Assembly (NCBI GenBank): GCA_031763025.1
Contig: JASSKH010000010.1
Span: forward strand, 3,529,901-3,593,900
Length of the DNA stretch: 64,000 bases
Reading direction: 5' to 3'
Source of the DNA: Macrocystis pyrifera
Taxonomy: Eukaryota; Sar; Phaeophyceae; Laminariales; Laminariaceae
In this document: positions 35,104 to 62,794 of the stretch, piece by piece
How positions within the stretch are numbered: the stretch's first letter is position 1
Layout of the letters: every line of letters begins with the position of its first letter
Position numbers and translations under genes: made by a program
Notes under the pieces: model-generated
Database searches by the model: none
What the model saw: the letters and a program-made list of their open reading frames with translations, nothing else
Told to the model about the DNA's origin: nothing

Positions 35104-37923
35104 GTGGAAACCCTCGAAAGCACCAACGGGACGCAGGGCAACCAAAGCTTGGAGAGAGAGTCGAACCAACCTCACACAGAACAAAAAACGACCACAACGG
35201 CACCAATGCCAGCGAGGAAACGCCCGCCCCCGAAAAACGGGAAGAGTTCCAAGAAGAGGCGGCCACAAAATGCGGAGCAATTTTCCGAGCTATTGGAAAG
35301 AATAGAGCAAGTAAAGTAATAGGGAAGAAGTTTATAGTATGCACCAGAGCGGTAAAATGGTGAGATGAAAAAGTAAAAGAGGCTATAGGAGTAAGGAGAA
35401 AGGCACACGCAACATAGACATCGAGCAAAACTACGACAGGATGGGAGGGATATGCTATAGCTAGAAATGAAGTAAAAGAGATGGTAGAGAAGAGGAAGAA
35501 AGGGATATGGAAAGACGTAGTAAAAGAAGCGAACGAAGACTTTGAGGGCGGGATGGACCAGATGTGGGTAGGAACAAAAAGGATACTGGGCAAACAAGCA
35601 GGAGAGGCAGACACGGGAATAACTACCTCAAGAGCACAGAACGGTAAAAGGGCTAGTAGTTCGGAGGGGAAAAGGGAAGTAATATTAATAGTAGAGCATT
35701 ACCGTAAGCTAGGAACACCCACAGTCAACGAAACGCTCGACGCAGAATTAGATAAGGAAATCAACGCGTGGGCAGAGGCGAACGTAGATGCATCAGAAAG
35801 GGAAGGCAGTGGTTCAGGACGGTTCCAGAGAGAGTTCACAAGGGAAGACGTAAATAAGTGTGTAGCTAAACGTAAGAATAGAAAGGCAGCAGGGGCAGAC
35901 CAAATAGTGAATGGTTTTATGAAGTACGGGGGAGAAGGAATGCTTACCATGATGGTTATGTTGTATACCTGGATATGGAAAAACGAATACGCACCTACGA
36001 GGTGGAGAGAAGGAGTAGTATTAATAGTAAATTTATTCAAGAAAGAAGATGAGGCTGACCCGGGGAACAATAGAGGGATAGTGCTACTAAGCACAGTAGG
36101 GAAAACACTTTGTAAGATTTCGAACGATGTAATGGGAACAATGACGGAGAATGAAGACAAAATAAGCGAAGGGCAAGCAGGGTGTAGGCCAAACCGTAGC
36201 TGCGTAGACCATGTGTACACCTTGAGTAAGATAATCCAAGGTAGGAAAGACGCGGGACCACCAACGTACTGATTCTTTCTAGATGTGCAGAAAGCCTACG
36301 ACACAGTATGGAGAAATGGATTGTGGAAAAAAACCGTGGGAAATAGGAATCAGAGGAAAGATGTGGAGAATTACGAAAAAGATGACGGAATGTACGAGAA
36401 GTGCTGTGATGCTGGACGGGGAAATATCGAAGTCTGTTGACATTTTACAAGGAGTTGCACAGGGATGTACGTTGTCACCTAACTTATTCAATATATATTA
36501 ACAACCTGATAGTAGCAGTCGAGGCAGCAAGGCAGGGAGTCACGGTAGGGGAAGATGCGGTGTCGGGATTGATGTTTGCGGATGATTTCGTGTGGATATC
36601 AGAAACACCCGAAGGATTGCATAAACAAATAGAGAAGACGCTAGAATACACCAGGAAATGGAGGGTGACGGCGAATGTCGAGAAATACGCAGTAGTTGGT
36701 TGCAACGAAGATAAGGTAAACCCGGTAAATTTCAGCTGGAAGTGGGGAGTAGATGAATTGCCGATCGTAGACCAGTATACATACCTTGGCGTAGAGATCT
36801 CAAAAAACTGCTCTTGGGATACACATATAGCAAAAGTAATAGGAAAGGGTAAGGCACAAGTAGGCAAGATGGATGCGACCCTAACAGACTCGCACGTTGA
36901 CACTAGGATTAAGATATGTATCCTGATGAATGTGATAGTACCAAAGCTAGAATATGCAGGAGAAGTACGGGAAGGGAACGCGAAGTTCGTTAAACAGTTG
37001 GAAACAGTACAGATGACAGCAGCTAAAAAGTACCAAGATGCTCAAGTACGATTAGAAATACAGTACTAAGAGCAGAACCGGGAACGTACCCACTCAAGAC
37101 AAATAGAGACATGAGAAATTTGAAATGGCAAAATAAGGTAAGGAACATGCCAAAAAAGAGGTTGCCAGCCATAGTTGATAAAGCTGTATGGGAGAAGGTA
37201 ACAAGAGGGCGCTGGAATAAGGTGGGATGGCGTAGTTGAGAAAGTATGGAAGGATACAGGGGGAAACCAAGAAGAGGTGATATCCGCAGAAAAAATTGGG
37301 AGGCACAAGGCAGAAGTAGAAGAAAGGATAGAAAGTAAGGAAAAGGCTAGCGCTAAGAAACAAGGTGGAATCAGAAAAACATTTAGAGGTGTACGGGGGA
37401 TTGACGGAAGGAATAGGTATGAAAACGCATTTGCACGGCCCAATGGACTTCGCGAAAACGCTGAAACTGCGATTTCGTGTCGGTGACCTGGACCTGCCAG
37501 AGAGAAGAGAGAGGAATACCAGTAGCCGGGAGGAGGAAGTAGATGCACAGATATGCCCGTTTGGCAAAGCAATAGAGAGTAGAAGTCACATAGTAGGAGA
37601 ATGTGAAATGTACAAAGAGGAACGGGATGTGTTAGAAGAGATGAGGGAAATAGACGGATGTGGCATGGAGGAGTTTGATACGCTAGATAGCAGCGAGAAA
37701 ACGATCGCTATCCTAGAGGATAGATGACCACAGGCGGCCAAACTGGAACGGGATAAGATTAGCAAAAAGGTTATATGTGTTATATGGAAACAACGTAATG
37801 AGCGCCCAAATGTTGGAGGTGTCTCTATTAAGAGTAGGAACGGTGCCCGTCTCGAAAGGGATGCGTGGTCAATGGTCGAATGACTAACGCAAGCAATGAG
37901 TATCCCCCCCCCCCCCCCCCCCC
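35104..37923 (+). mobile_element. LINE (non-LTR retrotransposon), 5'-incomplete, decayed, poly(C)-tailed
   Basis: The protein trace runs from a basic segment (MPARKRPPPKNGKSSKKRRP) through WWDE..KEAIGVRRKAH linker sequence into a reverse transcriptase. RT motifs include AAGADQIVNGFMKYGG, PGNNRGIVLLSTVGK, SEGQAGCRPNRSCVDHVY, FFLDVQKAYDTVW (motif A), QGVAQGCTLSPNLFNI (B) and GLMFADDFVWIS (C, FADD catalytic pair). The C-terminal CCHC-type zinc motif is CPFGKAIESRSHIVGEC. The ORF ends ERDAWSMVE about 25 bases before a C-run (37,904-37,923). Breaks: TGA at 36,270; frame changes near 36,335 (A-run), 36,495 and 37,026; TGA near 37,725. No endonuclease domain is seen upstream, so the copy is probably 5'-truncated. 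The clade is not assignable by eye. Confidence 0.92.
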
Positions 37924-38046
37924 TCTCCCGCCTGCCCGCTAACCCTGGTGCCACGACCTTTAACCTCTAGTCCCCATCACCACCACCACCAACATATACA
38001 TCAATACAAGGAAGGAGCCCTTCACAGCAGCGGCAGCGGCGGCGGC

Positions 38047-38084
<38 letters not shown>

Positions 38085-38124
38085 CGGTCCGAACAAAACC
38101 AACCAAAAGGCAGCCTCTACTTAC

Positions 38125-38955
38125 CGTAGCACAATCAACACCAGCACCAGCACCAGCACCAGCCGACAGGCGGCCGCCTTCTCCTCCATCTCCATCCCCT
38201 TTCCCCTCCAACCTCCAGTCCAGCCCCGTCCCCTTCTGTCGATCCCGCCCTCCCCCCCCCCCCCCCCCCCCCCCTCCCCCTCCTCCTCCTCCTCCTCCCC
38301 CCCCCCCCCCCCCCCCCCCCCCTCCCCCTCCGCGTCTTCTTCCTCCCCCTCCCCTTCCCCCTCGTCGTCGTCGCTCGAGTCGTTGATGGTAACGACATCC
38401 GGCGACCGAGGCACTTTCGGTGCCCTGCCGCCGCTTTTTCGGGGACTGCACCGGAGTTTATTTTTGTATAAAGGAGAGTTCGGTGCCCCTCCCGGCCCAT
38501 CGTGGCGGTAGCCGTGGCCGGTACTGTCCCGGTTGCGACCACCGACGCCGCCGCCGCCGCTGCCGCCACTGTGTCCTAAGGCCGACATGATTCCGGTGAC
38601 CGGGTTCTTGCCATACGTGCGGATGTTAGGGTTTAGCTGTTGCTCTCGCGTGGTGGCGGTACCGGCGGTAGCGGCCGTAGCGGCGGCAGGAGTGGTCGCA
38701 GTGACAGATGGGCCATCGCAAGGTGCGTTTCGGGCTCGCCTGCGGGAGTAATGAAAGGCAGGGGCGCTGTGTTGTGTGCGTACATACGTGCGTTTACGTG
38801 TTATCTTTGCAGCAAAAAAAAATGATAAGAGCAAAAGACCAGAGAGATGCAGAGTACGATGAAGTATGAGGGGACGAAGGCCTGGCGTTCTTGGCCCGTT
38901 TGGCACGTTGTTTCTTCTTCGGCTGCAGCTGCAGCTGCAGCGGCAGCAGCAACAT
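38125..38955 (-). CDS. Two exons with NLS and SUMO-interacting-type motif; possible N-terminus of the SUMO protease
   Basis: Exon 1 (38,955-38,858) starts ATG and encodes LQLQPKKKQRAKRAKNARPS, a strong basic nuclear-localisation stretch. It ends at a phase-2 donor that joins in frame to exon 2 (38,739-38,125, after TCCCGCAG). Exon 2 reads TYGKNPVTGIMSALGHSGG, NSPLYKNKLRCSPRKSGG and PKVPRSPDVVTINDSSDDDE, then Glu/Gly-rich sequence with two long G-runs, and ends at the excellent donor GTAAGT. DVVTINDSSDDD has the form of a SUMO-interacting motif: a hydrophobic core followed by Ser and acidic residues. Frame beyond the G-runs is uncertain. The strand, the motif and the missing N-terminus of the protease 10 kb downstream suggest one gene with a large LINE-bearing intron. 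This link is inference. Confidence 0.55.
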
Positions 38956-39209
38956 CGCCAACAATCACCACCCCCAGTCAACTCCACGACCACCACGACC
39001 ACCACGACCACCACGACCACCGCCGCCACACCAACACCGACATGAACACCAACAGCGACACCAACACCGACCGACACAGCCACCACCGACATCAACACCA
39101 CCACCACCGCCACCGCCACCGCCACCAGTATCCGCACCAGTACCAACAGAGCAACAACATCATCACCAATACCTTCACCACCAGCACCACCACCAACACC
39201 ACCAACACC

Positions 39210-39241
<32 letters not shown>

Positions 39242-39301
39242 CAATAACCAGGCACCTCAATGCACGAGGTAAAAAGTGGGTTGGGCAGGGCGTATAACAA
39301 C

Positions 39302-39335
<34 letters not shown>

Positions 39336-39350
39336 CCGAAAAGGTGAAAA
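38956..39350. repeat. CCA/CAA trinucleotide low-complexity run
   Basis: CCACGACCACGACCACC-type units pass into CACCACC and (CAA)n. The 459-codon minus-strand frame over this block is mostly artefact. Confidence 0.9.
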
Positions 39351-39640
39351 AAGAAGTGGATTGGACGGGGCGCGTGTGCGCGTACCCCACTCTGCAACCC
39401 GTAGTACCAACAGGAACACCCACCTGGTCCATAAATTTTCCGACAGAGTGGTAAAAACTGCACTTAGAAAAACTGCACTAGTTCCTCGTAAGCGTCGCAC
39501 ACTGACACACTCAAAAATCCGAAACTGCTAGCGGCCGGATAACTAAATATATTTTCAGATGCAAATACTCCACATAAAAAAGGGCATCGACGGGTGGGCT
39601 ATATGGAGATTGGCAAAAAAAACAGTGGGGGAGAGAGGAT

Positions 39641-39677
<37 letters not shown>

Positions 39678-40000
39678 GGGGGGGTCCCTCCGTCCCCTGG
39701 GAGGAATCCCTCCGTCTCCTGGTGCTGCTGTCCGCTCACCTCTCCCAACCCGCCGCGGATTGTCGATCCCGGTCCCGGCGCCGGCGCCCGCACCGTCGCC
39801 ATCCTTGTCCCATCTTGAGAGGCGTTACAATGGCGGGACAAATGAAAGTGACATCCCAGAGAATAGAAAAAGAGGTGCCGAGAAGGCAAGGGGGCAGGGG
39901 GACGAGGAAGGGGAGGGGGGGGGGAGGACGGGGGGGGGGGGGCGGGCGGGTGGAGGTCGGAATGTTTGCGACGTACGATATGTTGTCTACAGGCGAGGTT
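39351..40000. other. G-runs; no supported gene
   Basis: A G-run of about 35 lies at 39,642-39,678 and another at about 39,931-39,942. Frames on both strands are Gly- or Pro-rich only. Confidence 0.5.
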
Positions 40001-41010
40001 TTCGCGGCCGAAGCCAACCGATCGACTCACCGATTCACGGACCGATTCACTGAAACTGGTATTTCCACCGAACGAGAGTCGATTGACCGAAACCGACCAA
40101 CCAACAAACAAAAACCACCGATTCATCATCGATAAAAAAAGATCGATCGAAAACCAATCAATCACAAGGAAGCAACCGATAATCCGACCGATTCACCGAG
40201 CGATCTGCGGGCCAACCCACCGACCGACCGACCCACCGATCCGCCAAAACCGACGGATCGCCCAAAGACCAACCCTTAACAAAAGAATCAACCAACAAGC
40301 CAACGAGTTCTACCAATCCATCAAACCCATCACCCGACCAATCTAATCAATCGGTCAGTCCACCAACCAACCAAACCCACCAACTAACCTACCAACCATA
40401 TCAAACGAAACAAACGAACCAACCAACCAACCAACCAACCAATCAAACCGCATCAACCCATTTCAACAACGGCTACGAACCGATCAACCAACGTCGCCGA
40501 CCTGCTCTGCGGGCCACCGGCTTGCGCCTGCCATTCTCTCCTCCTCCTCTTCGCGCGCCAAAAACTGACGGATCGGGCCGAGGTGAGCCGCATCACCCGT
40601 CCCCATCAGTGAACTCCTCAATCTATCAACCCATCAAAATCTACACAATAACCAACCCGTGAAAGGGCGCATATACCGACCGATTCCGGCCAGAAAAATA
40701 ATCCGTCGACCGAAAACCGCCAACTCCAAGGTGCAAACCAAATCCACCCACCGATCACCGCCTACATACCGACCCGCCGACCGAAAACCACACGTCCACC
40801 ATTCCACCGACCGAAACCATACCCCGATACATCGATCACCCCCTGTATACCAATCTGCAGACAGAAACGTGCCTCAAACCAGCCATATACTGTATTCCAA
40901 TCCACCAACCGAAACGACACACCGATCCCGAACGATTCCACCGGACACTCTACCGAACGATTCGTTCGGGAACGACAAAAAAAAATCTACCGAACGACTC
41001 CACCGAAGGT
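40001..41010. repeat. Degenerate ACCGA/ACCAA-type simple repeat
   Basis: Dense short words CCGATT, ACCGACC, CCAACC and ACCAACCAACC throughout. Open frames are compositional artefacts. Confidence 0.8.
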
Positions 41011-41200
41011 TTCCGCCCACCTGTTCTGCTGGCGATTGGCTTGCGCCTTCTCCTCTCTCTGGCGTTTCGCCGCTTCTCTGACAGTGGTGGTCTTACCCTG
41101 CCCACTCCTGCCAGCCACCGGCCTTGCCGCCCTAGGGGGGACCCCACCGCCTCCGCTTTGAATAAAAGTGCCGGGGATTATCGGTGCGGCTAACGGTTTC
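41011..41200. other. Short unique stretch, possible repeat-flanked exon not provable
   Basis: Minus-strand reading gives ERREKAQANRQQNRWAE and a Gly/Pro segment before GKTTTVREAAKRQ. Too short and unframed by clear splice sites to call. Confidence 0.25.
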
Positions 41201-41946
41201 ACAAAAAAAACACAAACGAAACGGAACGGAACGGAACGAAACGAAACGACAGCAGAGAACGAAACGAAACAAAAACAAAGCGAAACGAAACGAAAGGAAA
41301 AGAAACATAATGGAAACGGAACGGAACGAAACCGAACAAAACGAAACGAAAACAGAAGAACAAAAAAAAAAACGAAAAGAAAACGAAACGACAGCAGAAA
41401 ACGAAACGAAACAAGAACGAAACGAAAATACAAAAAAAAAACGAAAATAGAGCACAAACAGAAACGAAACGGAAACATAAGTGAAACGAAACGAAAAGAA
41501 ACAGAATAGAAGGGAAACGGAACAAACGAGAACAGAGAGAACGAAACGAAACGAAAAAACAAAACCAAACGAAAATAAAACAGAAACAGAAACGGAACGG
41601 AACGAAACAAAACCAGATAAAAAACGAAACGAGACAAACGCGAGAAAACGAAAGCAGAACGCGAAACGAAAAATTTGAAAACCAAAAACAGAAAATAAAA
41701 CGATATATACAAATGGAACGAAACGAAACGAAACCAAACCAAACGAAACCAAGCGAAGCGAGACGAAGACAGAAACGAGTCGAAACGAAAATAGAAGAAA
41801 ATCGAAACGAAGAGAGAAATGAAAACAGGAAGACAAGAAAAGAAAAGACATGGTAAGACAAGACAAGACAAGGCGAGGAAAGGCGAGGCAAGGCGAGGCA
41901 AGGCAAGGCAAGGCAAGGCAAGGCAAGGCAAGGCAAGGCAAGGCAA
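41201..41946. repeat. GAAACGAAAC repeat followed by (AAGGC)n
   Basis: GAAAC/GGAAC units run to about 41,850, then (AAGGC)n to 41,946. The Phe-rich minus-strand frames are artefacts. Confidence 0.95.
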
Positions 41947-42104
41947 ACCCTAACCCAAACACATTCGTGGACCGCCGGCAGCTACACAGGTACCGCTATT
42001 GGATAAGGGCACGACGTGCACGGAACAGCACCTAATCATCCAACCGTTCTCACCAAGTTATCGGTACGGGAACATGCTCCTGTTACGTTCAACGTTGCTG
42101 ATAC

Positions 42105-42919: not shown

Positions 42920-43295
<376 letters not shown>

Positions 43296-43905: not shown

Positions 43906-43952
43906 GAAACAAGGTCCGGGGACGACACAAGCGGGGAGGGCAGCACGGAGGG

Positions 43953-44357
43953 GGGGGGTAGTAGTACTCATTATCATGCATGGCCATAGTCGTATAACCA
44001 TAGACCCTCGCATCCCTACAATGCCGGGACAGAGCACGTGGGGTTTTCACCGACCAGGCAGACATTGCTTGCATCAAGCGCGAAACGCCGTGAAGTGTTG
44101 GGCGAGTCGCATGGAGGGTGAGCTGCATCCTACTAAGAACCGCGTTTGAGGCGGATTTTCTTGCATATGGATGACAGCGTCATTGAATTGATTCAATTTC
44201 TGCTGCGGCCACCTCCAGAGACAACAACGGGTTTCACTATGTGACTGCCTCGTGGGTGCCTTACCACACACGCTAGGTGATACGATCATCACCTTTGTGC
44301 GGAGTAAGGTTCTCCCCGAACGAAAAAAATGTTTCAACTCGACCGCCAGCCATGGTG
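43953..44357 (-). mobile_element. C-tailed SINE, near full length
   Basis: In reverse complement it starts GTCACCATGGCTGGCGGTCG, passes GTGCGG, CACCCACGAGGCAGTCACAT, GAGGTGGCCGCAG, GCATCCATATGCAAG-type sequence and GATGCAGCTCACCCTCCATG, and ends GGCCATGCATGATAATGAGT then a C-run. It matches 61,725-62,118 end to end, defining a unit of about 400 bases. No convincing Pol III A/B boxes are seen. Confidence 0.85.
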
Positions 44358-45930
44358 ACTTGTCAAATAAAAAAAAAAAAAAAGGTACCCTGGTTGTCTA
44401 CAGCAGCTAGCGCAGTGAGAAAGAGGCGTGTTTTACAGCGTCTTCGCCAACCGACGTCAACCCAACAGAGCGGGGGAGGGGGAGGGCTGTGTTGCTATGA
44501 ACCCTTGCGGGACCCAGCGATGGAGACCAAAACTACGATATCGTTTTTTTTCTCTTGTGAGCCGCCTACGGATGGCTCATACGTAGCAGTGTCACCCCGC
44601 AGCAGTACACGCGGCATCGTTTTACGGAGGCGTATTACATACAGTAGAGGTAACACCAAAATATTCTGAGGCTCCTCACTCCTTACTTGATTATAGTATT
44701 GGATCTCTACACCTCAACACCTGCAGTAGTCCCACCCAGAAACTGATTTTGAGCAAAAAGCTAAAAAGTGAAAACCCGGTTGGGACGACCCCAAAGCCTA
44801 GTAATAACTACATCACGTTATCACGAACACTAACGTAAAAACACTCCTGTATGGTATTCATTCCAAAATATAGCGCGTCAAGGAGCCCGGTCAATCAGAA
44901 ATACTTCGACCAAAAAGTGCTGCGACCTTCGTATCCCTATGTCATAACTCTGGGCCCGTGTCGCACAGCTCCTTTGCGTTCTTGTAGTGCGGTCGGTCAC
45001 TGAAACGCCGGTCGTCGCCCGGTGGTCTGTCTGTTAATAGTGGTTACCCTCGAATGCTGCTTAACGTCGATCTCGTGAGCTCAAACCCCAACCGCGGTGA
45101 GACTATGAATTTATTCGCAAGAAAAAAAAGGAACCAACTGCTCACACCGCGTAGCAAGTAGCGTGGGTAGACACGACTCGACGCGAGTCGACGGGGGAAA
45201 GAACAAGCTGAAGTCTTAACTCTCGAGATAAAACAGAAGGTACGGACCGTACTGGGGAGGGGGCAAGGAAAACCTGCTATGATAGGTGACCCCGACCCCG
45301 CATCTGAGTTGCGACTAGGAGAGAGAACAAAAAAAAAAGAAGGGCGAAGTATAATACACGGGAAAAGAAAAAGAAAAGAAAAGAAAAAAACGCCTTGCAC
45401 GTACGCTCGCGTTTGTAAATCCCACGCGCCGTTCGCAACACATTCTTGTCGTTTGCGGAACTACACAGACAGCCCCTGGTGGGAAAATGCCTCCATTATA
45501 CTGAAAATCCCCTACTTTTTGCGTCGGAAGGGGGGGGGGGGGGGGGTGACATGTCCTCCATCCCATGTAATAACGCCTTCCCAGATTTACGGGTGCCGTT
45601 TTCCGCGAGAACGGGCACCGTTCTCTCTTCTTGTTTTTGGCCGTATGATACAATGCATCATTCCTGTTATTGGCCCCTCTGATCTCGCTCGGTTCCCCAT
45701 CTCCCAAAGCCCTATCGCTTTGGCTTTGGGACTAACAAACTTCAGAGGTGAGAAAAACAAATGGCGTTCTAAACGGCCGCTGCGTGATCGGGGCGTGACA
45801 CAGATTGGTGTCCGAGCTGTGTACGTACAACGCAAGGACTCGTACGGCCTGTACTTGCGGTGCGGGCCGCCCGCGCTGATCGCGGACGATTGATCCACCA
45901 TCGATATCAGTGAGTTGGTCGCCATACTTC
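44358..45930. other. No supported gene
   Basis: One plus-strand frame of about 200 codons (45,279-45,893) ends GVRAVYVQRKDSYGLYLRCG but has a low-complexity Lys-rich start, no domain and an equally open opposite strand. A G-run of about 15 lies at 45,532. Confidence 0.4.
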
Positions 45931-46639: not shown

Positions 46640-47440
46640 ACGGTGGCGAGGCGGCAGTGGCGGTGAAGGTAACGGGAGCGGGAAGTAACTGTGACTGAAC
46701 GTTAGCGGCAAGTAACGCTAACGGTGAAGGCAACAGTAAATGTAACGGTGAATGTAACGCTAAATGTAAACGCCACATGTAACGGTTACGGTAGCGGCAA
46801 TAGTGACAGTGACGGTCGGAGGAACGGTAACAGTAGCGGTGAAGGAAACGGTAACGGTAGCGAGTGACGGTGACAGAAACGGTAACGGAAAATGTAACGG
46901 TAACGGGAGCGGTAAGTAACGGTGACCGTGAAGTATACGGTAAATGCAACGGTAATAATAGCGGTAGTAGTAACAGTGACGGTCGGAGGAATGGTAACAA
47001 TAGCGGTAAAGGAAACGGTAACGGTAGCGAGTGACGGTGACAGTAACGGTAACGGAAAATGTAACGGTAATGTTAGCGGTAATAGTAACAGTGACGGTAA
47101 CGGTAGCGGTAAGTAACGGTGACCGTGAAGTATACGGTAAATGTAACGGTAATAATAGCGGTAATAGCAACAGTGACGGTCGGAGGAATGGTAACAATAG
47201 CGGTAAAGGAAACGGTAACGGTAGCGAGTGACGGTGACAGTAACGGTAACGGAAAAAGTAACGGTAATGTTAGCGGTAATAGTAACAGTGACGGTAACGG
47301 TAGCGGTAAGTAACGGTGACCGTGAAGTATACGGTAAATGTAACGGTAATAATAGCGGTAATAGTAACAGTGACGGTCGGAGGAATGGTAACAGTAGCGG
47401 TGAAGGAAACGGTAACGGTAACGGTAGCGAGTGACGGTGA
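46640..47440. repeat. GGTAAC-rich satellite with about 197-bp higher-order period
   Basis: AAGTATACGGTAAATG recurs at about 46,930, 47,128 and 47,325. Between the marks short GTAACGGTA and GTGACGG words vary in the same order in each period, so 6-base words are organised into a longer unit. Confidence 0.9.
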
Positions 47441-48424: not shown

Positions 48425-48920
48425 AGGTCAGGTAACGGGAGCGGCAAGTAACCGTGACGGTAACGGTAGCGGTAAGTAACTGTAACGGTGAAGGGTACGG
48501 TAAATGTAACGGTAATGTTAGCGGTAATAGTGACAGTGACGGTCGGAGGAACGGTAACAGTAGCGGTGAAGGAAACGGTAACGGTAGCGAGTGACGGTGA
48601 CAGAAACGGTAACGGAAAATGTAACGGTAACGGGAGCGGTAAGTAACCGTGACGGTAACGGTAGCGGTAAGCAACGGTGACCGTGAAGTATACGGTAAAT
48701 GTAACGGTAATGATAGCGGCAATAGTAACGGCGACGATCGGAGGAACGGTAACGATAGCGCTGAAGGAAACACCAACGGAAACAGTAACGGTAAGGGGAG
48801 CGGTAATGGTAACAGCAACTGCGGCAGAGACGGTAGGGGTAGCGGCAAAGGCAACAGCAACGATAAAACTAAACGTGGCGGCAACGGTAGCAGTGACGGT
48901 GACGGGGAACGGTAACGGTG
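48425..48920. repeat. GGTAAC-rich satellite, second block
   Basis: Same words and one AAGTATACGGTAAATG mark (about 48,687). The satellite was split by the family E repeat region. Confidence 0.9.
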
Positions 48921-49159: not shown

Positions 49160-49437
49160 CCAAGTGGCTGCACCGGAAATTAAATCAACTGATTGAAGCT
49201 GTCATCCGTATGCAAGTTCGCCTCGCAAGCGGTTCTTAGTAGGATGCAGCTCACCCTTCATGCGACTCGCCGAACACCGCACGGCGCTTCGCGCTTGGCG
49301 CAAGCAATGTCTGCCCGGGCCGGTGAAAACCCGACACGCTCCGTCCCGGCATTGCAGGGATGCGAGGGTCTATGGCCATACGACTACGGCCATGCATGAG
49401 ATCGAGTACATCTCTCCTATCGAGTACACCCCCCCCC
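49160..49437 (+). mobile_element. C-tailed SINE copy, 5'-truncated
   Basis: Begins near AGTGGCTGCACCGG, with GATGCAGCTCACCCTTCATG, GGTGAAAACCCGACACGCTC, GAGATCGAGTACATCTCTCC, TATCGAGTACACC and a C-run. The doubled GAGTACA end marks the longer-tailed subtype. Confidence 0.85.
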
Positions 49438-50360
49438 TCCCTCCCTCGAGGGTTGTAGAGACCAAGTCCCAGGTTTAACAAAATGGTCGAAACATGCTTA
49501 ACTCCAAACTCTAACCCTAAACGCTGGGAAAATTCTCGGAATGTTCTACGTGCAGTAGGACGTAATGAAGAGTTCCCGGTAACTATCTTGTAGAAGCTGG
49601 GCCGAGTCGTGAACACTACAGCACCCCCCTCTCCCCTCCCCTCCTCCCTCCCTGCCCTAGCCACGTATATACTCCGACATCTCTTCCCTTCCCCTCTCCC
49701 CACGGCCGCACTCACACTCTTAGCAGGGCTGGCTTTCGATATTGTCCCAGATCCGGTGGACTGCATCGTCTTTCCCGTTCGCCGCTGCCGCTGTTATCGT
49801 CCTCATCGCCAGAAAGGGGGGGGGGGGGGGGGGGGGGGATAGGCGAGGGGACCGGGGGGGGGGAGTGGGGTCAGCAAGAGCCGGTGAGGTCAGGAGGTGT
49901 GTCTGAAGCACAACGCACCGTGTACATACAGTTGTAGGAGCTTTGCTATACACGAAGTGACACACGCTCGCAGCATATCGACGCTCGTACTTCTGCACGC
50001 CCTTCCTGTCCTTGTGACGTCGGTGGATGTGCTTATATACCAACCAAGTTAAGTGCAATCAAGTCCCACACCCCAAAAAAAATTTCAGGTTCACCGTTAT
50101 AAGATTCCCGTGACGATCTCGAGCTCCGAATTCGGGCCTACCGCCCACCGAACAGCCGGCTCCTGCCAGACCAAAGTTTTTCTTGGGCTGACCCTAGTGC
50201 CACGAGGAAGTAGGAAAGCGAGCGGGTGGAGAGGTAGTCGGACGATGAAACACGGGGGGGAGTAGTTGGAGCGAAACAGGGCGGGGGGGGGGGGGAAGGG
50301 GTGTTCTCCCCATCTCTTCGGGCATCACTCGACAACCACCACAAACACACACGCACCCCC
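49438..50360. other. No firmly supported gene
   Basis: A minus-strand frame (about 49,500-49,766) includes KIVTGNSSLRPTARRTFREF and KHVSTILLNLG and looks partly protein-like, but has no splice support or domain. G-runs occur at 49,817-49,838 and 49,851. Confidence 0.3.
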
Positions 50361-50513
50361 GCTTGGCGCAAGCAATGTCTGCCTGCTCGGTGAAAACCGG
50401 ACATGCTCCGTCTCGGCATTGCAGGGATGCGAGGGTCTATGGTCATACGACTACGGCCATGCATGAGATCGAGTACATCTCTCCTATCGAGTACATCCCC
50501 CTCCTCCCCCCCC
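50361..50513 (+). mobile_element. C-tailed SINE copy, 5'-truncated
   Basis: GCTTGGCGCAAGCAATGTCT to TATCGAGTACATCC and a C-run. The next LINE copy starts at the tail. Confidence 0.85.
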
Positions 50514-52045
50514 GGCCATGCATGTAGTTGCACAGGGATGTACGTTGTCACAAGATACATATTGGCGACCTGATAGTAGCAGTCGAAGCAGCAAGACAGG
50601 GAGTCACGGTAGGGGAAGATGCGGTATCGGGATTGATGTTCGCGGATGACTTCGTGGGGACATCAGAAACACCCGAAGGATTGCAGAAACAAGCAGATAA
50701 GGCGCTAGAGTACACCAGGAAATTGAGGGTGACGGCGACCGTCAAGAATGTGCAGTAGTTGTTTGTAACGAAGATAAGGCAAACCCGGTAAATTTCCGTT
50801 GGAAGTGGGGAGAAGATGAATTGCCGATCGTAGACCAGTATACATACCTTGGCGGAGAGATGTCAAAATACTGCTCTTGGGATACACATATAGAAAAAAT
50901 AATAGGAAAGGGTAAAGAACACGTAGGCAAGATGGATGCGACCCTAACAGACTCGCACCTTGACACTAGGATTAAGAGATGTATCCTGACGAATGTGATA
51001 GTACCCAAGCTAGAACATGCAGGAGCAGTATGGGAAGGGGACGCGAAGTTCGTAAAACAGTTGGAAACAGTGTAGATGACATCAGCTGAAAAAATCCTAA
51101 CATGCTCAAGTACAACTAGTAATACGGTATCAAGAGCAATACTGGGAATGCACCCACTCAAGACATTTAGACACACGAAAGAGTTAAAACGGCCGTATTA
51201 AGTAACGAACATGCCAAAAAAAAGGTTGCCAGCCATATATATTAATAGTTGATAGAGCGGTACGGGAGAAAGTAACAAAAAAGGGCGAGCTGGAATAAGG
51301 TGGGATAGCGAAAAGTATGGAAGGATAAACGTAGAGGGAAACCAAGAAGAGGTAATGTCCGCAGAAACGTTTGGGGGTTACAAGGTAGAAGTTTTAATAG
51401 AAAGGATAGAAAGAAGGGAAAGGCTAGCGCTGAGAATCAAGGTGACATCGGAAAAAACACTTGGAGATATACGGGGGGATAAACGAAGGAATAGGAATGA
51501 AAACGTATTTGCACGGCCCAATAGACTTTGCGAAAACGCTGGAAATGCGATTTTGTGTAGGTGACCTGGAGCTGCCAGAAAGAAGAAAGAGGTATACTAG
51601 TAGCCGGGAGGAGGAGGAATTATATGCACAGATGTGCCAGTGCGGCGAAGCAATAGAGAGTAGAACTCACATAGTAGGAGAACGTGAAGTATACAAGGAG
51701 GAACGGGATGTGTTATTGTTAGAAGAGATGATACAGAGACGAATGTGGGAGGAGTGATACCACTAGATAGCAGCGAGAAAACGATCGCTATCCTAGGAGA
51801 TAGATGGTGGTCACAGGCGGCCGATCAGGATCGGGATACGATTAGCAAAAAAGTCCTGTGTAATATACGGGAAAACATAATGAGCGCCAAAATGTTGGAG
51901 GTCACTCCGCTAGGAGTAGGAACGGTGCTTCGTTTCGAAAGGGATGCGTGGTCAATGATCAAATGACTAAGGCAAGCAACAAATGAGTACGCCCCCCCCC
52001 CCGCCCCCCCTGGCCATGCATGATGACGAGTACACCCCCCCCCTA
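50514..52045 (+). mobile_element. LINE copy B, 5'-truncated, poly(C)-tailed, plus a SINE tail scrap
   Basis: Starts inside RT motif B (GTTGCACAGGGATGTACGTT) right after GGCCATGCATG, a SINE-tail scrap. It continues through SGLMFADDFVGTSETPEGL, QYTYLGGEMSKYCSWDTHI and IESRTHIVGEREVYKEERDV to SMIK and stop, then a C-run at 51,992. A zinc-motif Cys-X-Cys is clearer here (CQCGEAIESRTH) than in copy A. Frames are broken at several points. A further scrap GGCCATGCATGATGACGAGT and C-run follows at 52,010-52,045. Confidence 0.9.
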
Positions 52046-53008: not shown

Positions 53009-53039
<31 letters not shown>

Positions 53040-55111: not shown

Positions 55112-55194
55112 TCTCGAGCTTCCTCGTGGTGGAAGTGCCGAAGACACCGGCCTTGGCTATTCCGGAACCTAACCTATCTTGTCACTGGCTGCTG

Positions 55195-55345
55195 TGCTGC
55201 TGCTGCTGCTGATGATGATGATGCTGCTGCTGCTGCTGACGCTGCTGATGCTGCCGACGCCGCTGCTGCTGTTGCCGGTGCTGATGCTGCCACTGCTGAT
55301 GTTGATGGTCGTGCTGTTGCTGCTGTTGCTGCTGCTGCTAACTGT
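55195..55345. repeat. CTG/GAT trinucleotide repeat
   Basis: GCTGCTGCTG with GATGATGATG, partly degenerate. Confidence 0.9.
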
Positions 55346-55354
55346 TTCTTGCAG

Positions 55355-55570: not shown

Positions 55571-56310
55571 CAACAAGGAGGAGCCATGGGCGAGGTAAGG
55601 TATACCTTTGGGCGTCTGGTACTGGTACAGCGTATATACAGATTACTGTACCTGAAAAAGGAAAGCTAAAAATGTGGTTGGTCATGACTATCTAAGAAGG
55701 CACGAGAAAGGATGAGGTGGCGAAAATCTTGGCCCTCGCGTGCAAAATCCAAAGGGCACATGTCTAGGGCATCCCCCTCGAGAAAGTACTGCGACACTCA
55801 CGTGTCGGCCATGCAGTAGTAGCTGCTGCTGACACTGCGGTCTCAATGGTACCAACTTTCTGATTTCAAAAATCGAACTTGCGCCATCGGGTTTCAAATA
55901 TATTCTGAGGCGTTATTATAGTTCGAACGTCTGTTTTCTGAGTAATGAGCAGAGCAGCAGAGCAGCAGAGCAGCAGAGCTGTGTGGCAGCTTAAACATCC
56001 TCCGTGCCTCTATGCGCTCGACTGCTGCGACGAATAACCCCAGTGCGACGTACTTGGTGCTGTAGAGCAGTGGTAACCAGTACAACGCAAATAGCAGCGG
56101 TCCTCAAGCTGATTTTTCCTTTTCCTTCGCGTAACATTAATAAGGTGAGCTGTTTCCTCGTCCGCTTGCTCGATACCGGTACATCAATCAATCAGTAGTT
56201 TCTGCTGTCCACTGTCTTGACATCGAAGCTCCTATGATAGGCGTTCAGTGCGTTATCATACAGGTGCTGGCAATGTGCTCAAGCTTCATGCGTACAGTCT
56301 ATACAGGTAC
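55571..56310. other. No supported gene
   Basis: CAGCAGAG repeats at 55,950-55,980. Remaining frames are short and featureless. Confidence 0.4.
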
Positions 56311-56493
56311 CACCACTGCTATGTGTGTGTTTTTTCTATAGCATAGCCCGCACAGCAGTTGCTCTGCACGCTGGTCCCAGTTGCACTTCTTCGAGTTTGG
56401 CTGCTGTGCCACACACTCCGCTTCCAGGCGATTCCATTCATCCAATAATCCACGGAGTGAGGCCGTCCTTGACTCGCACACGGGGCTTGTCGG
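56311..56493 (-). CDS. Possible internal exon, unknown protein
   Basis: 61 minus-strand codons between CGCCCAG and GTACCTG: CESRTASLRGLLDEWNRLEA, ECVAQQPNSKKCNWDQRAEQ and LLCGLCYRKN. Charged helical composition with several Cys, clearly unlike shuffled sequence. It enters and leaves in phase 0. It may be an upstream exon of the gene starting or continuing at 55,111, although the phase of that junction does not fit simply. No family is recognised. Confidence 0.4.
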
Positions 56494-56699
56494 CTGGGCG
56501 GGGCAGGGGTCGAGGCAGGAGACTTCCAGCTGACAGCTCTATGAATAGTTGCTACGTATGCGTAGACACCCTGTACGTATTGTCTCTCATGGCACATAGC
56601 TCAAGTACGAAGTTACAGCAGTAGAGAGGCTCGCAAGAAGTCTATTCGACTAATACGTAGCTACCGTAGACTCTCAAGCAAGAGCAAGTTACTTCCTGC

Positions 56700-57260
56700 C
56701 CGCAGTTTCGGTCCACCCGCAAAATACTGCTGTAACGGTTTCCGTCCGCCCGCAATGCCGTAACGGTTTCCGTCGACCCGCAATGATACAGCCTTTTCCC
56801 CTCCACCCGCAATACTGCTGTAACGATTTGCTGTGACGGTTTCCATCCCATAGTCCACCCGCAATGATGCAACGGTTTCATCGTCCACAGCAGTGTTGCA
56901 ACTTATTTCCGTCCACCTCGCAATATGATGTCGGTTTCACGATGCTCTAACTTTCTTCCGGTCCACCTCGTGATGCTGCAACGGTCTCCGTCCACCCGCG
57001 ATGCTCCACGTAACGATTCCCGTCTCCCCGCGATGTCGCAACGATTTTCGTCCATCCACTTTGCTGTAACGATTTCCGCCCACCTCGTAGCGATTTTAAC
57101 GGTTTCACCCTCCACCGGCAATTCAACGCAGTCACGGTTTCTGTCCACCCGCAGTACTGCTGTAACGGTTTCCGTCCACCCGCAATGCTGTAAGAGTAGC
57201 GGTTTCTGTCCACCCACGACGATGAACCGATTTGCCGTCCACCCGCAAATGGCTGTCGTT
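56700..57260. repeat. Minisatellite of about 35-45 bp
   Basis: TAACGGTTTCCGTCCACCCG and CAATGCTG units, about 13 diverged copies. Several contain TACTGCTGTA. Confidence 0.9.
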
Positions 57261-58137
57261 GTTTCCTATTTATGTTCCGTTTTACTGCTGCATCATGTAT
57301 CCATCTACCCGCAATCCTGTACGACTCTGTTCCGACATTTAAGGATTATTGATATTAAGTTTTAACAGTGATGGCAATTTCGTCGATTCCGGAATTCGCC
57401 GGGAATATATCCAGCCGGACGGATTTTTTTTCCCGCGGAATTATATTATTCTCAAGGGGGTCCGCGGTATATATAGACCCCCCTACCTGAGGGGGGGGCA
57501 CATTCAAAGAACAGCAGCAGCATAGGAAATACCTGGTAGAAAACAACACAGCGCCACAGGTAGCGGTGGTGCCTTACGCTCGAACTATTGAAAATGGCTG
57601 GGCGGCGTGTACACACGTACACCCAACAGTCGACAATACAGCGTTGGGGGCTTTGTTGGGCTTCATTCGCGCTTTTCCGGAGGCTGTCATGAGGATACAG
57701 AGGAAAAAACACCCCTAATAACTGAGATTCTGAATCTGCGGGGCCTCCTCGATGTTCCGGGGCCCCCTGTCTGCCGGAATTGCCGGCCGGAACTGGAATT
57801 GCCCAAAACACGGAATTCCACGGCCGGAACTAGGTCAAATCGCCGGAATTGCCATCGCTGAGTTTTAATATAAAAACGGATCTTGCTTTTCGGAACAGAG
57901 TGATATATCACACCAGGTACCAGTCTGCCTACTCTCCGCCCGCGATGCTGCGTATCATACCCGGTACCTGGTATGATTTGTGATTTGTAAAAAAGAAAAA
58001 AATGTTGTGTGTTCTGTGTTTGTTTCGTTTGTTTTCATGTTGGCATCTGGTCCGTCCACCAGCAATGAAAGCCATTGTTTCCCATGTACGATGCATCTGA
58101 CGATAGGTCCGACCGAGCGAGAAAAGAGGATTGAAGG
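57261..58137. other. Upstream region of the reductase; no element identified
   Basis: Short palindromic pieces with CCGGAATTGCCGG (57,773-57,790, 57,838-57,852) and GGGAATATATCCAGCCGG. TACCTGGTA at 57,530 and 57,965. No TATA box or other promoter element can be assigned with confidence. Confidence 0.4.
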
Positions 58138-59925
58138 ATGCCAACAGTCTCGTCCGCCCAAGTTGCCGTGGCGACAACGTTAGTGGTGATCGTGATAATG
58201 AGGTCGACCCAAGCCTGCGCGGAGTCGGTCGCCACCGCTAGGGTTGCCGGAGAAGGGGAGGAGTGTCGAGCCGCCCCGGGCCTGCCTCTACAAGTGCGGC
58301 TCAATAACGGCGTCTACGGTGCGTGCAATATACGTATGGTGTCATTGCAACCGTCGTGGTCTAATGAATTTTGCGGGCTACAGATTTGTATGCATCGAAC
58401 CGATCAACTCAGATGACCCCCTCGGTTTGGCGTGCCCGGTTTGCCTCCTTCGATGAAACGCCTTCCCACCCTACCTCTCTCCCTTTCCTCCCTCCCCCCC
58501 CTTCCTCCTGGCCGCTACCGCCACCACTACCGGTTCCGCTGCTGCCGTTGCTGCTCTGGTGTGATGCTTTTGGCGTGCCGCCGTGCTGCGGCGCAGTCCC
58601 GAGGATAGGCTTCGGCACCGCCGGGCTGGGCGATGCGACGGAAGAGTCGGCCAACCTGGCCCTGGCAGCGGGCTACCGACACATCGATACGGCGCAGGTT
58701 ATGAAAAAACGAAGCAAATATTATACGAGGAGACCCCAGCCTGACCCCCTTGACTGACCACCCCCCCTACACTAAAAACTCTACTATTTCGGGTGAACAT
58801 ATTAATAGTATTCTGAACCATACATGGTGTGTATTCATAGGGGGGTACCACTCTGTCCCTAAAAATAGGAACCATTTTCATTTAATATTAATATACAAAA
58901 TGTACTTACATTTGGGGACAGCCTGGTTGGTACCTCTTTTTATCCGTCGTTGCTGTATGTGTTCTTTTCTGTTCGTATGTGTGTCCTGTTGTGTTTTTTT
59001 TTTTTGTTACTTTTTTCTTCTGCGTTTTTCTTTTATGTCGTTTGTTTTTGTGAAGTTTTTGTTGTTTGTTTTGCGTTACAGTGACGGGTGTTCTGCTTCT
59101 CCCCCACTCTTCCCCCCCGTACCCACCTCCTTCAGAGGCCGCCCTTCATCACGCTCTCTTTGTTGTGCCTTCCACCATCTCCACGAACTCCCACGGTTGT
59201 CTCTCGCAGTGAAATATTTTGCAACGGTACCACAGCAGTGCCGTTATTGCGGGCCCCAAGAGCTATGTAACGAGAAGACGCCGTCAGCTGGGAGGTGAAG
59301 AAACCGGCCACCACCTCGACCGATGACAACTCTCTCCCCCCACCCCAACCCTCTCCCCTCCCTCGCCCCACCAGAACCATACTCTCGATACCCCGTGCTG
59401 CCTCCACCCCCCCATACACACTTCGTCTCGAGAGGGATGCGTGGTCAATGGTCAAATGACTAAGGCAAGCAACAAAGGAGTACGCCCCCCCCCCCCCCAC
59501 ACACACATACTCGCCGAACACCTCACGGCGCTTCGAACTTGGTGCAAGCAATGCCTGCCTGGTCGGTGAAAACCCGACGTGCTCCGTCCCGACAGTGTAG
59601 GGATGCGAGGGCCTATGGCGATACGACTACGGACATGCATGATAATGAGTGCACCCCCCCCACACACCCCATACTCTCCGCCTTTTCAGAGTCGTACTCC
59701 CCCCCCGTGCCGCTCGCTCTGTTCTGAACTTTGTTCGCCTTTCCCACCATCTCCACGAACTCCCACGATTGTTTCCCGCGGCCGGTCGTTTCCCGCTGCC
59801 GGTCGTTTTCCCGGGGGGGGTTTTCCCGCGGTTTTTTTCCTTCGGATGTTTTCTCGCGGTTGTTCTCCCGCGGTTATTTTATGGTGTGGTTATTCTACCG
59901 CGGTTTATTCCCGGCCGTACTACTG

Positions 59926-59956
<31 letters not shown>

Positions 59957-62794
59957 TATACTACTATAAATTGTCCCGCAGGCTCAAGAGTGGTACCGAG
60001 AAGACGCCGTCGGCAGGGCGGTGAAAAAGAACGAGAAGCGGGCCACCGCCTTATCGGAACCGTGCAAACTCTCTCCCCCACAAAGACAACACGGAAGCGG
60101 AGAAGAGCAAGGGGATGGGGTTGGCGATGGCGGCGATAGTAGTAGCAGTGTGGGGTCGGGGGTGGAGGCTGGGGGGGTAGGGGTTGGGGTGGTGGACGGG
60201 GGGGTGGAGGAGGCGAGGGTTGGGGGGGTTAGGGGGGGGAGGGGGGGGGTGGGGGCGGAGGGGATGGCGGCGGGGGGGGGGGGGGGGGGGGTGACCTCGA
60301 GGTTGGGGGTGCCTCGTGAAGACGTGTTCGTGACGACGAAGATCCACCCGAGGGATTTCGGAGCGGAAAGGCTTCGGGCAATGGTTGAGGTTTCCGACGA
60401 AAACTTGCAGGTACGGGGAGAGAGAGAGGAGGGGGGGGGGGGGGGGGGGGGCGCTTGCTGTTGGTGCTGCGTCTCCAGATCGTTTTTGATTTGCTTTCGT
60501 TATGGTTCGGTTTTGGTTTGGTTTAGTTTGGTTTGCGTAGCTTGCCTTGTTTTGATTCTGCGTCGTTTTTGTTTTATTTATGTGTTACGTGTGAAAGCTT
60601 GGCCGTGTTTTGGTCCTTTCTGCTCTGTTTTATTTTTATGCTGCCGTGTTTTGATTCAGGTTTTGTTTTAGCTCTTTTTTTTCTTCTCTGCGTGCGGGCA
60701 TCTTTGTTTTTGTCTGTTTTTGTGGGTTGCTGAAGCAGATCGCCAGACGTGTGCGGCTTGAGCTGTGCCGTGGCTCCGTAGCTTTACCTTGTTCAGAGTA
60801 CAGTTTTTTCAGCCTACAGGCAGGCGACCCCGTTTATCCCAGTCGAGGCACGTTCGGTTCCATCTGTTGCGCGGCACTCGTAGTCGTCCTCCCTCACCGT
60901 TTCGACTTCGGTGCCAGGTCGGTAAGAACCCGACGTGCTCCGTCCCGGCATTGTTGGGATGCGAGGGTCTATGGTCATACGACTACGGCCATGCATGACA
61001 ATGAGTACACCCCTACCGCCTCGCACGATATCGAAAACGTTTTTGCGGCAGTGTGCACGAAAACCCTCGCGCTTTCGACGTCGCCCCCCCTCCCTTCCCT
61101 CCGCTCCGGCCTCCCATGCTACCACTTGTCTTGCCCCGTTCGACGCAAAGGGGATTGACCTGCTGTTGCTGCATTCTCCCCACTGCTGGGCCGGGTCTTG
61201 CCCTGACAGGTGAGTGGGACAACCCCCCGTCATTAAAAAACGCCTCCAGTTGCTGAGGAACGCCGGCGGCGCTGAGCCGTTTCATCAAAATGTTTTAATT
61301 TTTTTTCCCATTTCCGCAGGCCAAGAGGGGGGCAAGGTATCGTTTTCCCGCCAACTAACAGATGATACCATCCGGACTTTGTGGTTTAAACGAGAAATGA
61401 TACCCCCCCCCCCCCCCCGGCCATGCATGAGATGGAGTACATCTATCCTATCGAGTACACCCCCCCCGCTATCCTAGTGGGTAGATAGTGGCCACGGGTG
61501 GCGAAACAGGGAGGGGGAGTAATACCAGCACAAAGTTTCTACCTGGTATGTAATATACGGGATAAAGGTAATGAGCGCCCAACTTTTAGAGGTGTCTGTA
61601 TCAAGAGTAGGAACGGTGCCCCGCCCCGAAAGGGATGCGCGGTCAATGATCGAATGACTAAGGCAAGCATCAAATGAGTACGCCTCCCCCGTTTCTTTTC
61701 TTTCTTTGTTTTTGTTTTGGCGGTCACCACGGCTGGCGATCGAGTTAAATCATTTTTTGTGCGAGGAAAGCTTCAACTCCGCACAGGGGGGATTATCGTA
61801 TCAGTGTGTATATGATAAGGCACCCACGAGGCAGTTACATAGTAAACCCATTGCTGTCTCTGGAGGTGGCCACACCACAAAATAAATCAGTTCATTGACG
61901 CTGTCATCCGTATGCAAGAAAATCCGCCTCAAAAGCGGTGCTTAATAGGATGCAGCTCACCCTTCATGCGACTCGCCCAACAACTCACGGCGCTTCGCGC
62001 TTGGTGCAAGCAATGTCTGCCTGGTTGGTGAAAACCCGACGTGCTCCATCCCGGTACTGTAGGGATGCGAGGTTCTATGGTCATACGACTACGGCCATGC
62101 ATGGTAATGAGTACACCCTCCCCCCCCACCGTCCCCGCCCCCGCCCGCCCCTCAACCCCTCCTTTCCATGTACCGCCTCCTTTCTTGTGTAGTTAATACG
62201 GAACGACACTATCACACCAGGCTTTGCTTAATTTCGCTGGTGATTTCAAAGAGAACGTCGGCACCCTCCCCTCCGACCCCTCTTACCCCAGGTACCACGT
62301 ACCGCCTCATTATGCGTATACTTGTACCCGTAATCTCATGGCTTCAACGAAAAAAAAAATAGACCGGTAAAGCCACCCCAATCATCCGTACCCCCTCCCA
62401 CGTACCGCCTCTTAATGTTTGTATATGTGCACGTCAATGATTGCTTCCAAGGATTGAAAGTAAGACAGAACCCCCCCCCCCCCCCCCCCCCCCAACACCC
62501 TCTTCCTCTCACCCCCGATCCGCCTTACCCCCTCTCCCACGTACTGCCTACTTTTGTGTGTTTATTTGTTTTTACTAACTGGGGACGCCAGCCCGACACC
62601 ATGGCAGGACGCGTGGCGGGAACTGGAGAAGCTGTACGCAGAGGGGGCGGTCAGAGCTATCGGGGTTTCCAATTTCTCGGAAGGCCTGCTCCGGGAGCTT
62701 CTCGGACTGGCCACTGTTATGCCCTCCGCGGTGCAGAACTGGATGGACCCGTTCCACCAGGACAGGGCAGTACGCAACCTGTGTGCGGAGAACG
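58138..62794 (+). CDS. Aldo/keto reductase with predicted signal peptide (five exons, may continue)
   Basis: Exons in phase: 58,138-58,318; 58,597-58,697; 59,982-60,410; 61,052-61,209 (start uncertain; 61,145 also possible); 62,592-62,794. ATG opens MPTVSSAQVAVATTLVVIV, a hydrophobic signal-like start. Then come LPLQVRLNNGV, PRIGFGTAGLG, YRHIDTAQ (catalytic Asp), AQEWYREDAVGRAVKK (Tyr), PREDVFVTTKIHPRDF (Lys), IDLLLLHSPHCW (His) and AEGAVRAIGVSNFSEGLLRE, then SAVQNWMDPFHQ. The complete Asp-Tyr-Lys-His tetrad predicts an active NAD(P)H-dependent carbonyl reductase of the (beta/alpha)8 barrel type. An unusual Gly/Val-rich insert of about 85 residues separates RAVKKN from VPREDV. The barrel's C-terminal strands are missing; a continuation after GGCTGCAG at 63,630 (GGVTCFLSLQ) is phase-compatible but weak. 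Introns hold SINEs, LINE tails and a MITE. Confidence 0.9.
58848..58930. mobile_element. MITE C copy in reductase intron 2
   Basis: CTCTGTCCCTAAAAATAGGA paired with TTTGGGGACAG around TTTAATATTAATATACAAAA. Confidence 0.7.
59150..59345 (+). pseudogene. Degenerate duplicate of the reductase exon 3 start
   Basis: GAGAAGACGCCGTCAGCTGG to AACTCTCTCCCCC (59,265-59,337) repeats exon 3 (GAGAAGACGCCGTCGGCAGG, 59,998 onward). CACCATCTCCACGAACTCCC (59,175) repeats 59,745. The copy lacks the TGGTAC pair that encodes the catalytic Tyr, shows a TAA next to it in the exon frame and has no good acceptor, so it is not a usable exon. Confidence 0.8.
59427..59500 (+). mobile_element. LINE tail fragment with C-tail
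   Basis: TCTCGAGAGGGATGCGTGGT, CAAATGACTAAGGCAAGCAA and GGAGTACG, then a C-run. In reductase intron 2. Confidence 0.85.
59509..59668 (+). mobile_element. C-tailed SINE copy, 5'-truncated
   Basis: TACTCGCCGAACACCTCACG to GATAATGAGTGCACC and a C-run. It sits directly after the LINE tail. Confidence 0.85.
59920..59967. repeat. (CTA)n microsatellite at an acceptor
   Basis: About a dozen CTA units, 15 bases before the exon 3 acceptor TGTCCCGCAG. Confidence 0.95.
60912..61016 (+). mobile_element. C-tailed SINE copy, short
   Basis: GTGCCAGGTCGGTAAGAACC to GACAATGAGTACACCCC. Reductase intron 3. Confidence 0.8.
61408..61690 (+). mobile_element. SINE tail scrap followed by a LINE 3' fragment
   Basis: C-run, GGCCATGCATGAGATGGAGT, CTATCCTATCGAGTACACC, C-run (61,408-61,467). 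Then a LINE fragment from GCTATCCTAGTGGGTAGATA through TGAGCGCCCAACTTTTAGAG to ATCAAATGAGTACGCC and a C-run. Confidence 0.85.
61725..62133 (+). mobile_element. C-tailed SINE, near full length
   Basis: GGTCACCACGGCTGGCGATC at the 5' end, GGCACCCACGAGGCAGTTAC, TCTGGAGGTGGCCACACC, GATGCAGCTCACCCTTCATG, CTTGGTGCAAGCAATGTCTG, GGTCATACGACTACGGCCAT and GGTAATGAGTACACC, then a C-run. It sits in the last identified reductase intron. No clear target-site duplication is seen. Confidence 0.88.

Follow-up and report, generated by a model that had tools for sequence, protein, structure and literature searches.

A LINE and a SINE-like partner with poly(C) ends in Macrocystis pyrifera, found mostly in C-runs that include their own tails

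The question raised by this locus is whether a LINE and a short partner with the same 3' end both finish in poly(C), and whether the C-runs that adjoin them are only tails or are also the places of insertion. The window, ie the whole stretch of 64,000 nucleotides of Macrocystis pyrifera DNA analysed here, contains 25 copies or fragments according to a hand-made table, seven of the LINE and 18 of the SINE-like partner. An automatic table holds 22, and some 5' ends, both in the window table and in the analysis that gave the 2.8% upstream background, were later shifted. An initial annotation, made from the letters alone, had placed LINE copies at 1.9, 10.5, 33.3, 35.1-37.9, 50.5-52.0, 59.4 and 61.5 kb, and all of these sites were confirmed. 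The partner copies that it put at about 14 are present, and number 18 in our count. The copies and chains of copies are listed below; SINE is used in the list as a short name for the partner.

1866-2150, minus strand: LINE 3' fragment, tail C9TC12, 5' junction CCCCC
10108-10145, minus strand: SINE 3' fragment, tail C6, upstream sequence C-rich
10485-10570, plus strand: LINE 3' fragment with C11 on one side and CCTC8 on the other
13888-14114, minus strand: SINE, tail C11, 5' end approximate
21603-21744, minus strand: SINE with CCCCC as tail and CCCCC at the 5' junction
23067-23168, minus strand: SINE flanked by runs of C14 and C15-16
23339-23439, plus strand: SINE, tail C10, upstream without a C-run
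25346-25457, minus strand: degraded SINE, tail C-rich, upstream without a C-run
32797-33106, minus strand: chain of SINE 33106-33014, C18 and a C-rich spacer, and SINE 32974-32797 without a C-tail
33197-33730, minus strand: chain, read on that strand, of a C10 site, SINE, C17, LINE 33430-33319, C17, and SINE 33302-33203 with a CCCC end only
35104-37923, plus strand: longest LINE copy of the window, C20 tail, with reverse transcriptase pieces, stops and frame changes, not intact; 5' boundary approximate
43950-44465, minus strand: nearly full-length partner element, C9 tail, with CCCTCCCCCTCCCCCGC immediately 5' of its start
49164-49450, plus strand: SINE with its GAGTAC end doubled, C9 tail, upstream without a C-run of five
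50360-50513, plus strand: SINE, 5'-truncated, C-rich tail, CCCC(C) immediately 5'
50506-52043, plus strand: chain of the end of SINE 50360, C8, LINE 50513-51989 (its first 12 or so nucleotides resemble the SINE), C11/C7, SINE fragment 52011-52034, and C9
59414-59661, plus strand: chain of a C7 site, LINE 59421-59483, C14, SINE 59511-59653, and C8
60912-61013, plus strand: SINE, end of CCCC only
61403-62127, plus strand: chain of C16, SINE fragment 61418-61459, C8, LINE 61468-61682, CCTCCCCC, SINE 61701-62115, and CCCTCCCCCCCC

Three pieces (50513-50526, 52011 and 61418) open with (G)GGCCATGCATG right after a C-run, and one of the three continues with bases of the LINE, not of the SINE; such starts mark either a point of repeated truncation or a switch between templates. 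The window also holds large tandem arrays built on a GTAACG hexamer (46792-47438 and 48448-48813), with higher-order units of 197 bp (97% match), and a tandem duplication of 250 bp with 96% matches at 9069-9566.

Each of the seven LINE sites bears GGGATGCG(T/C)GG..., then a C-run, as had been annotated. A C-run of at least five within 30 nt of the 3' end was found for 22 of the 25 copies (LINE 7/7, partner 15/18), compared to a background of 5.5% of 30-mers on both strands (binomial p 4e-25). The statement that every SINE copy ends in this way is thus right for 15 of 18, the exceptions being S32806, which has no run, and S33197 and S60914, which have CCCC only. Runs of at least five A, G or T after the 3' end were seen in 1, 0 and 1 of the 25 window copies, respectively.

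The counts were extended to the genome (537 Mb, 223 contigs), where GGGATGCGWGGNCWATGGNC has 5,284 exact matches and its reversed control has none. The exact LINE end GCAAGCAACAAATGAGTACG matches 1,653 times on the forward and 1,668 times on the reverse strand. CCCCC begins 0-2 nt after 1,334 of the 1,653 forward-strand matches (81%), a figure which treats every forward place as one count, in line with the listed rows; a gapped pattern gave 3,718 on the reverse strand, but these duplicate the same places and were left out. Genomic LINE copies therefore do not mostly lack the C-run, and for the partner the same was found in samples only. A 200-kb sample was drawn from one contig as 20 stretches of 10 kb at even spacing; of the 27 copies in it, 22 show a C-run of at least five at their end. 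A merged set of 105 copies lying away from stretch ends was also assembled (22 from the window, 27 from the sample and 56 from loci picked by the LINE-end pattern), and was reduced to 100 by removing five repeats of one antisense fragment. Duplicates in the set were removed by identical 70-nt bodies, so that near-identical copies of one duplicated locus (L005, L015, L017, L025, L026) partly remain. C-tails are present in 88 of the 100.

The length of the runs is variable. One insertion that occurs at five loci (L004, L016, L024, L027, L028) has 3' C-runs of 53, 81, 21, 40 and 58 nt and 5' C-runs of 19, 16, 22, 18 and 20, and in a second set of five loci (L005, L015, L017, L025, L026) the C-runs are 165, 71, 216, 50 and 63. 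The variation among loci of one insertion is due to slippage, assembly error, or both. Within each set the LINE/SINE insertions are the same but sit on several small contigs and differ greatly in C-run length (21-81 and 50-216), which suggests that the assembly holds duplicated sequence or separate haplotypes. The window contains 80 C-runs of at least eight, 54 of which adjoin none of the 25 copies, and the idea that all C-runs derive from the two elements was discarded on that count.

The shared 3' end was evident from either side. A profile of the SINE ends recovers all seven LINE ends of the window, and a profile of the LINE ends recovers 13 SINE ends (E 6e-8 to 1e-3). Consensus ends built from 51 SINE and 41 LINE copies, taken from the window and from fetched loci, are identical in 55 of 74 columns; their score is 46, compared to a maximum of 27 in 5,000 mononucleotide shuffles. 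The resemblance claimed for individual copies thus survives in the consensus, and the pair has the 3' end common to LINE and partner by which stringent-type pairs are recognised. No covarying base pair was found in this shared end of about 75 nt, which in the LINE is largely coding, and through which we infer that the partner is mobilised.

More of the LINE could be read from a longer copy elsewhere in the genome. It has two endonuclease-like pieces (PF03372, E 0.0057; PF14529, E 0.0012) and a reverse transcriptase piece (PF00078, E 0.00046), each below the curated cut-off, and a CxC...H...C motif at its C-terminus. PF00078 is also precomputed in relatives of the LINE protein; a search of solved structures with one of the endonuclease pieces retrieved no endonuclease. 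The reverse transcriptase is of the non-LTR type and the copies are truncated, as expected of a non-LTR LINE. In the LINE-bearing stretch labelled C25 an endonuclease-like frame opens directly behind a C10 run, which may or may not be the point of truncation. The frame of the longer copy ends GAPSRKGCVVNGQMTKASNN, and the end of its relatives reads ...KASNK. In the consensus the stop (TGA) is situated inside AAATGAGTACG(C)n, leaving only GTACG (5 nt) between stop and C-run. A very short 3' UTR and a terminal simple repeat are characteristic of RTE and RTE-X elements, and TGA, GTACG and the C-run together make up that arrangement here. From this anatomy and from the families described in PMC12477816, the LINE would be RTE-like.

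The LINE pieces have matches among the proteins of Ectocarpus sp. CCAP 1310/34, and a later search added one from Sphacelaria rigidula, from which the host would be a brown alga; in viral contigs no relatives of the LINE were detected by a scan of reverse transcriptase proteins or by a scan for the end pattern. VVNG near the end is kept in relatives at 41-53% identity (P0157, P0160, P0163, P0175, P0177). P0186, which is only 30% identical, still ends RGCVVNGSGAMAAI, and given that ending the end of the protein may be under an older constraint. Four LINE proteins that read past the stop continue into P-rich sequence (P0158, P0170, P0176 of Ectocarpus, and P0202). LINE or SINE sequence is also filed under bacterial MAGs (P0155 and L001; Parasphingorhabdus, Robiginitomaculum), probably as algal contamination.

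At full length the partner measures about 520 bp, more than most copies in the window, and its first bases are (TA)n AGGTTGGGTTGGCGTCGG. A SINE is a short, non-autonomous element with a head of the Pol III type (tRNA, 5S, 7SL). The partner is short and non-autonomous, and such a head did not emerge: ARAGORN found no tRNA in the window, and the full-length copy had no Rfam match at E<=1. The name SINE is therefore not established for it, and SINE-like is preferred. The 5' part does not seem to have been taken from the LINE, a possibility that was rejected when the full-length partner gave no match to the 5' part of the C25 LINE stretch.

A reading frame that crosses the SINE body into the tail gave 162 protein matches in other assemblies, and these allowed the tail to be followed as translated sequence. 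In the 97 copies with a parsable end among the 120 listed of the 162 matches, P (CCN) accounts for 57, 61, 58 and 42% at the first four positions after the core, compared to 4-12% at positions 15-30; the source being predicted proteins, only SINE copies with an open frame are visible. Among 101 translated copies from the same 120 that extend at least 15 residues past the core, 12 enter another SINE or LINE (E<=1e-3), 11 in sense and one in antisense, and 10 of the 12 joins begin within 20 residues. On L001, a probably algal contig that was placed in the MAG of a marine bacterium, a SINE end is likewise followed by a C-run.

The initial annotation took the tails, and the loss of 5' sequence at different points, as the mark of target-primed reverse transcription. 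The copies are indeed truncated at varied 5' points and most have poly(C) after the end; C-runs occur at the 5' junctions too, which suggests that they also serve as insertion sites and are more than tails. For 16 of the 25 window copies the 25 nt preceding the element contain a C-run of at least five, compared to a background of 4.7%, and no runs of A, G or T were found before the 5' ends of the window copies. Nine of ten aligned full-length partner copies start beside a C-run or a LINE tail.

Many of these upstream runs are the tails of other copies. Eight copies in the window are trailed within 60 nt by a copy on the same strand, where random placement gives a mean of 0.35 and a maximum of 3 (2,000 runs), and the 200-kb sample has seven nested copies, where random placement gives 0.27 and 4 (5,000 runs). 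In the merged set, 36 of 105 copies (56 of the 105 being from loci picked by the LINE-end pattern) start within 60 nt behind the 3' end of a same-strand copy and one behind that of an opposite-strand copy. After the reduction to 100, 36 copies are nested behind a tail, 40 lie beside another C-run and 24 do neither, ie there is a preference for tails and C-runs (76 of 100) which is not strict. The 40 solo copies have a C-run of five or more in the last 25 nt upstream, in every case within 10 nt, compared to a background of 2.8%. Because only three of the 40 solo runs, and a fourth weakly, are preceded by the end of an older element, ordinary C-runs seem to be used as sites too.

Three flank tests on window and merged copies gave no signal of general target-site duplication. 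Matched flanks were no more alike than mismatched ones in 95 copies (p 0.19), seven being above the 95th percentile and none above the 99th. In a gapped test two of 69 copies exceeded the 99th percentile (p 0.09 overall); the similarity in these two, L011 and L022, lies outside the C-runs and would fit an ordinary target duplication. Around SINE 59511 there may be a duplication that takes in the C-run, with a score exceeded by 3.7% of mismatched pairs, uncorrected. A high score at L50513 was discarded, as element sequence is present on both sides. Copies are thus not flanked by duplications as a rule, and duplications consisting of C's alone would be invisible. Insertion into C-runs would leave no outer duplications, but their absence is weak evidence taken alone. 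Among the matches listed in the fetched DNA, from which self matches were not excluded, no clear empty site was found, and a pre-existing C-run is therefore not shown directly for any insertion.

We regard it as fairly probable that in this brown-algal LINE and its partner the C-run acts as target, primer and tail, and that insertions stack head behind tail. The reverse transcriptase would recognise the common 3' end of either RNA, and the endonuclease would nick the G-strand within a C-run. The oligo(G) 3' end released by the nick could then anneal to the C-run at the end of the RNA and prime the cDNA, which would usually be 5'-truncated; the nick and priming steps are inferred. The C-end of the RNA would be either read from the C-run of the source copy or added, and the length of the tail would be set by slippage on C:G. 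Target duplications, if any, would be all C's and hence invisible, and the new C-tail would become the target of the next insertion, so that copies stack head behind tail. The C-tails, the C-runs at most 5' junctions and the nesting in one orientation argue for this account, and the 24 of 100 copies with neither tail nor C-run upstream argue against it.

A different explanation is that priming, at the 3' end, is the only step that makes C-runs, that insertion sites are not chosen for them, and that the upstream runs are coincidence or the remains of older copies. The C-tails are real in either case, the same 24 copies are then as expected, and L022 (C20 tail, no upstream C-run, a possible ordinary duplication) would fit such an insertion. 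We nevertheless judge this explanation unlikely, given the 76 of 100 copies with a tail or C-run on the 5' side against 2.8% in the background, the nesting on one strand, the small number of older element ends hidden upstream and the lack of general duplications. One-strand chains would likewise be produced if the reverse transcriptase moved from one RNA to the C-tail of another, a chain and its 5' C-runs then coming from one insertion event. This would predict duplications outside the whole chain or outside both C-runs, which were not found as a rule (L011 is a possible case), and the members of a chain seemingly differ in their state of decay. Such template jumping is quite improbable as the general route, even with the SINE-like start of LINE 50513 and the SINE-LINE join without a C-run in P0097, which do resemble a switch.

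There is very little chance that the pattern merely reflects a genome rich in C-runs, with homopolymers stretched by the assembler and no special link to the elements. At the 3' ends it is already contradicted, by 22 of 25 ends against 5.5%, by the 81% of exact LINE ends with a run within 2 nt, and by the P content of 42-61% at the first four positions of 97 translated copies against 4-12% further on (positions 15-30). Comparable runs of A, G or T are lacking and the effect is specific to position and strand. What does favour such an origin is that 54 of the 80 window C-runs of at least eight adjoin no copy, and that the longest runs (165, 216) may owe their length to assembly.

The use of C-runs as target, primer and tail can be taken further, and here our view is tentative, slightly on the side of doubt. 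Tail, target and primer would be one homopolymer; the LINE would cut and prime on C:G runs and so make its own next target; C-runs would be seeded and expanded, to about 200 nt in the assembly, with same-strand chains of LINE and partner genome-wide. The recognition end would lie in the last codons of the LINE and would have been taken over by the partner, and the LINE would need almost no 3' UTR because that end sits in its last codons.

Parts of this behaviour have precedents. Alu elements insert into the A-tails of older Alus, and in both cases the tail serves as target for the next same-strand insertion, but Alu has poly(A), the L1 machinery and clear target duplications. Nested insertion is also known for the Zepp and Zepp-like LINEs of green algae, where it leads to arrays composed mostly of 3' ends (PMC3446292, PMC8226300). 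As described there, Zepp belongs to the L1 clade, has an (A)n tail and forms one cluster per chromosome, whereas the chains here are short, dispersed and joined by poly(C). A preference for simple repeats is shared with microsatellite-specific non-LTR elements of the RLE type, namely the (TG)n-specific Togen and some HERO families (PMC4640811), but none of those named in the relevant part of that paper targets (C)n, and the preference here is partial, with 24 of 100 copies outside it.

There is also a likeness to stringent-type LINE/SINE pairs, which include green-algal RTEX and plant RTE and have a common 3' end and a terminal short repeat (PMC3747384). The common end, the short repeat and an RTE-like LINE are all found here, but (C)n is absent from the repeats in Tables 1-3 of that source, which give (A)n, (T)n, (ATT)n, (CTTT)n, (TTG)n, (TTGATG)n, (CATA)n, (CA)n, (CAA)n, (TAA)n, (CTATTT)n, (CCAT)n, (ACAATG)n and (CTTGTAA)n. 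In Ectocarpus, RTEX-1 and RTEX-2_Ec32 have a 3' end in common with RTEX-N1_Ec32, a non-autonomous and abundant partner of about 600 bp (PMC12477816). As there, we have a brown alga, an autonomous LINE and a short, abundant partner that shares its 3' end, and relatives of the present LINE protein occur in Ectocarpus. The present pair may be a relative of the Ectocarpus one, the families being likened by description only; the part of the PMC12477816 text that describes them is silent on tails, targets and nesting. The suggestion that the pair may be undescribed has thus to be narrowed, as a LINE and partner with a common 3' end are published for Ectocarpus. It stands for the tails, in that no poly(C)-tailed LINE or LINE/SINE pair was met in searches of literature mostly outside subscription papers and supplements, where the mentions of poly-C that were followed up concerned different subjects, and provisionally we regard the poly(C)-tailed pair as undescribed.

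We conclude that the association is real: a LINE that is RTE-like by anatomy and a SINE-like partner have poly(C) ends, and most of their insertions sit in C-runs, their own tails among them, beyond chance and beyond the window. The pair could explain part, not all, of the C-runs of the genome, which are a trap for assembly. LINE tails are central to the choice of template and target. A poly(C) pair with a preference for C-runs would separate what the reverse transcriptase reads from poly(A), would offer a natural setting in which to test how primer and tail anneal during target-primed reverse transcription, and would point to an endonuclease and reverse transcriptase with an unusual target chemistry.
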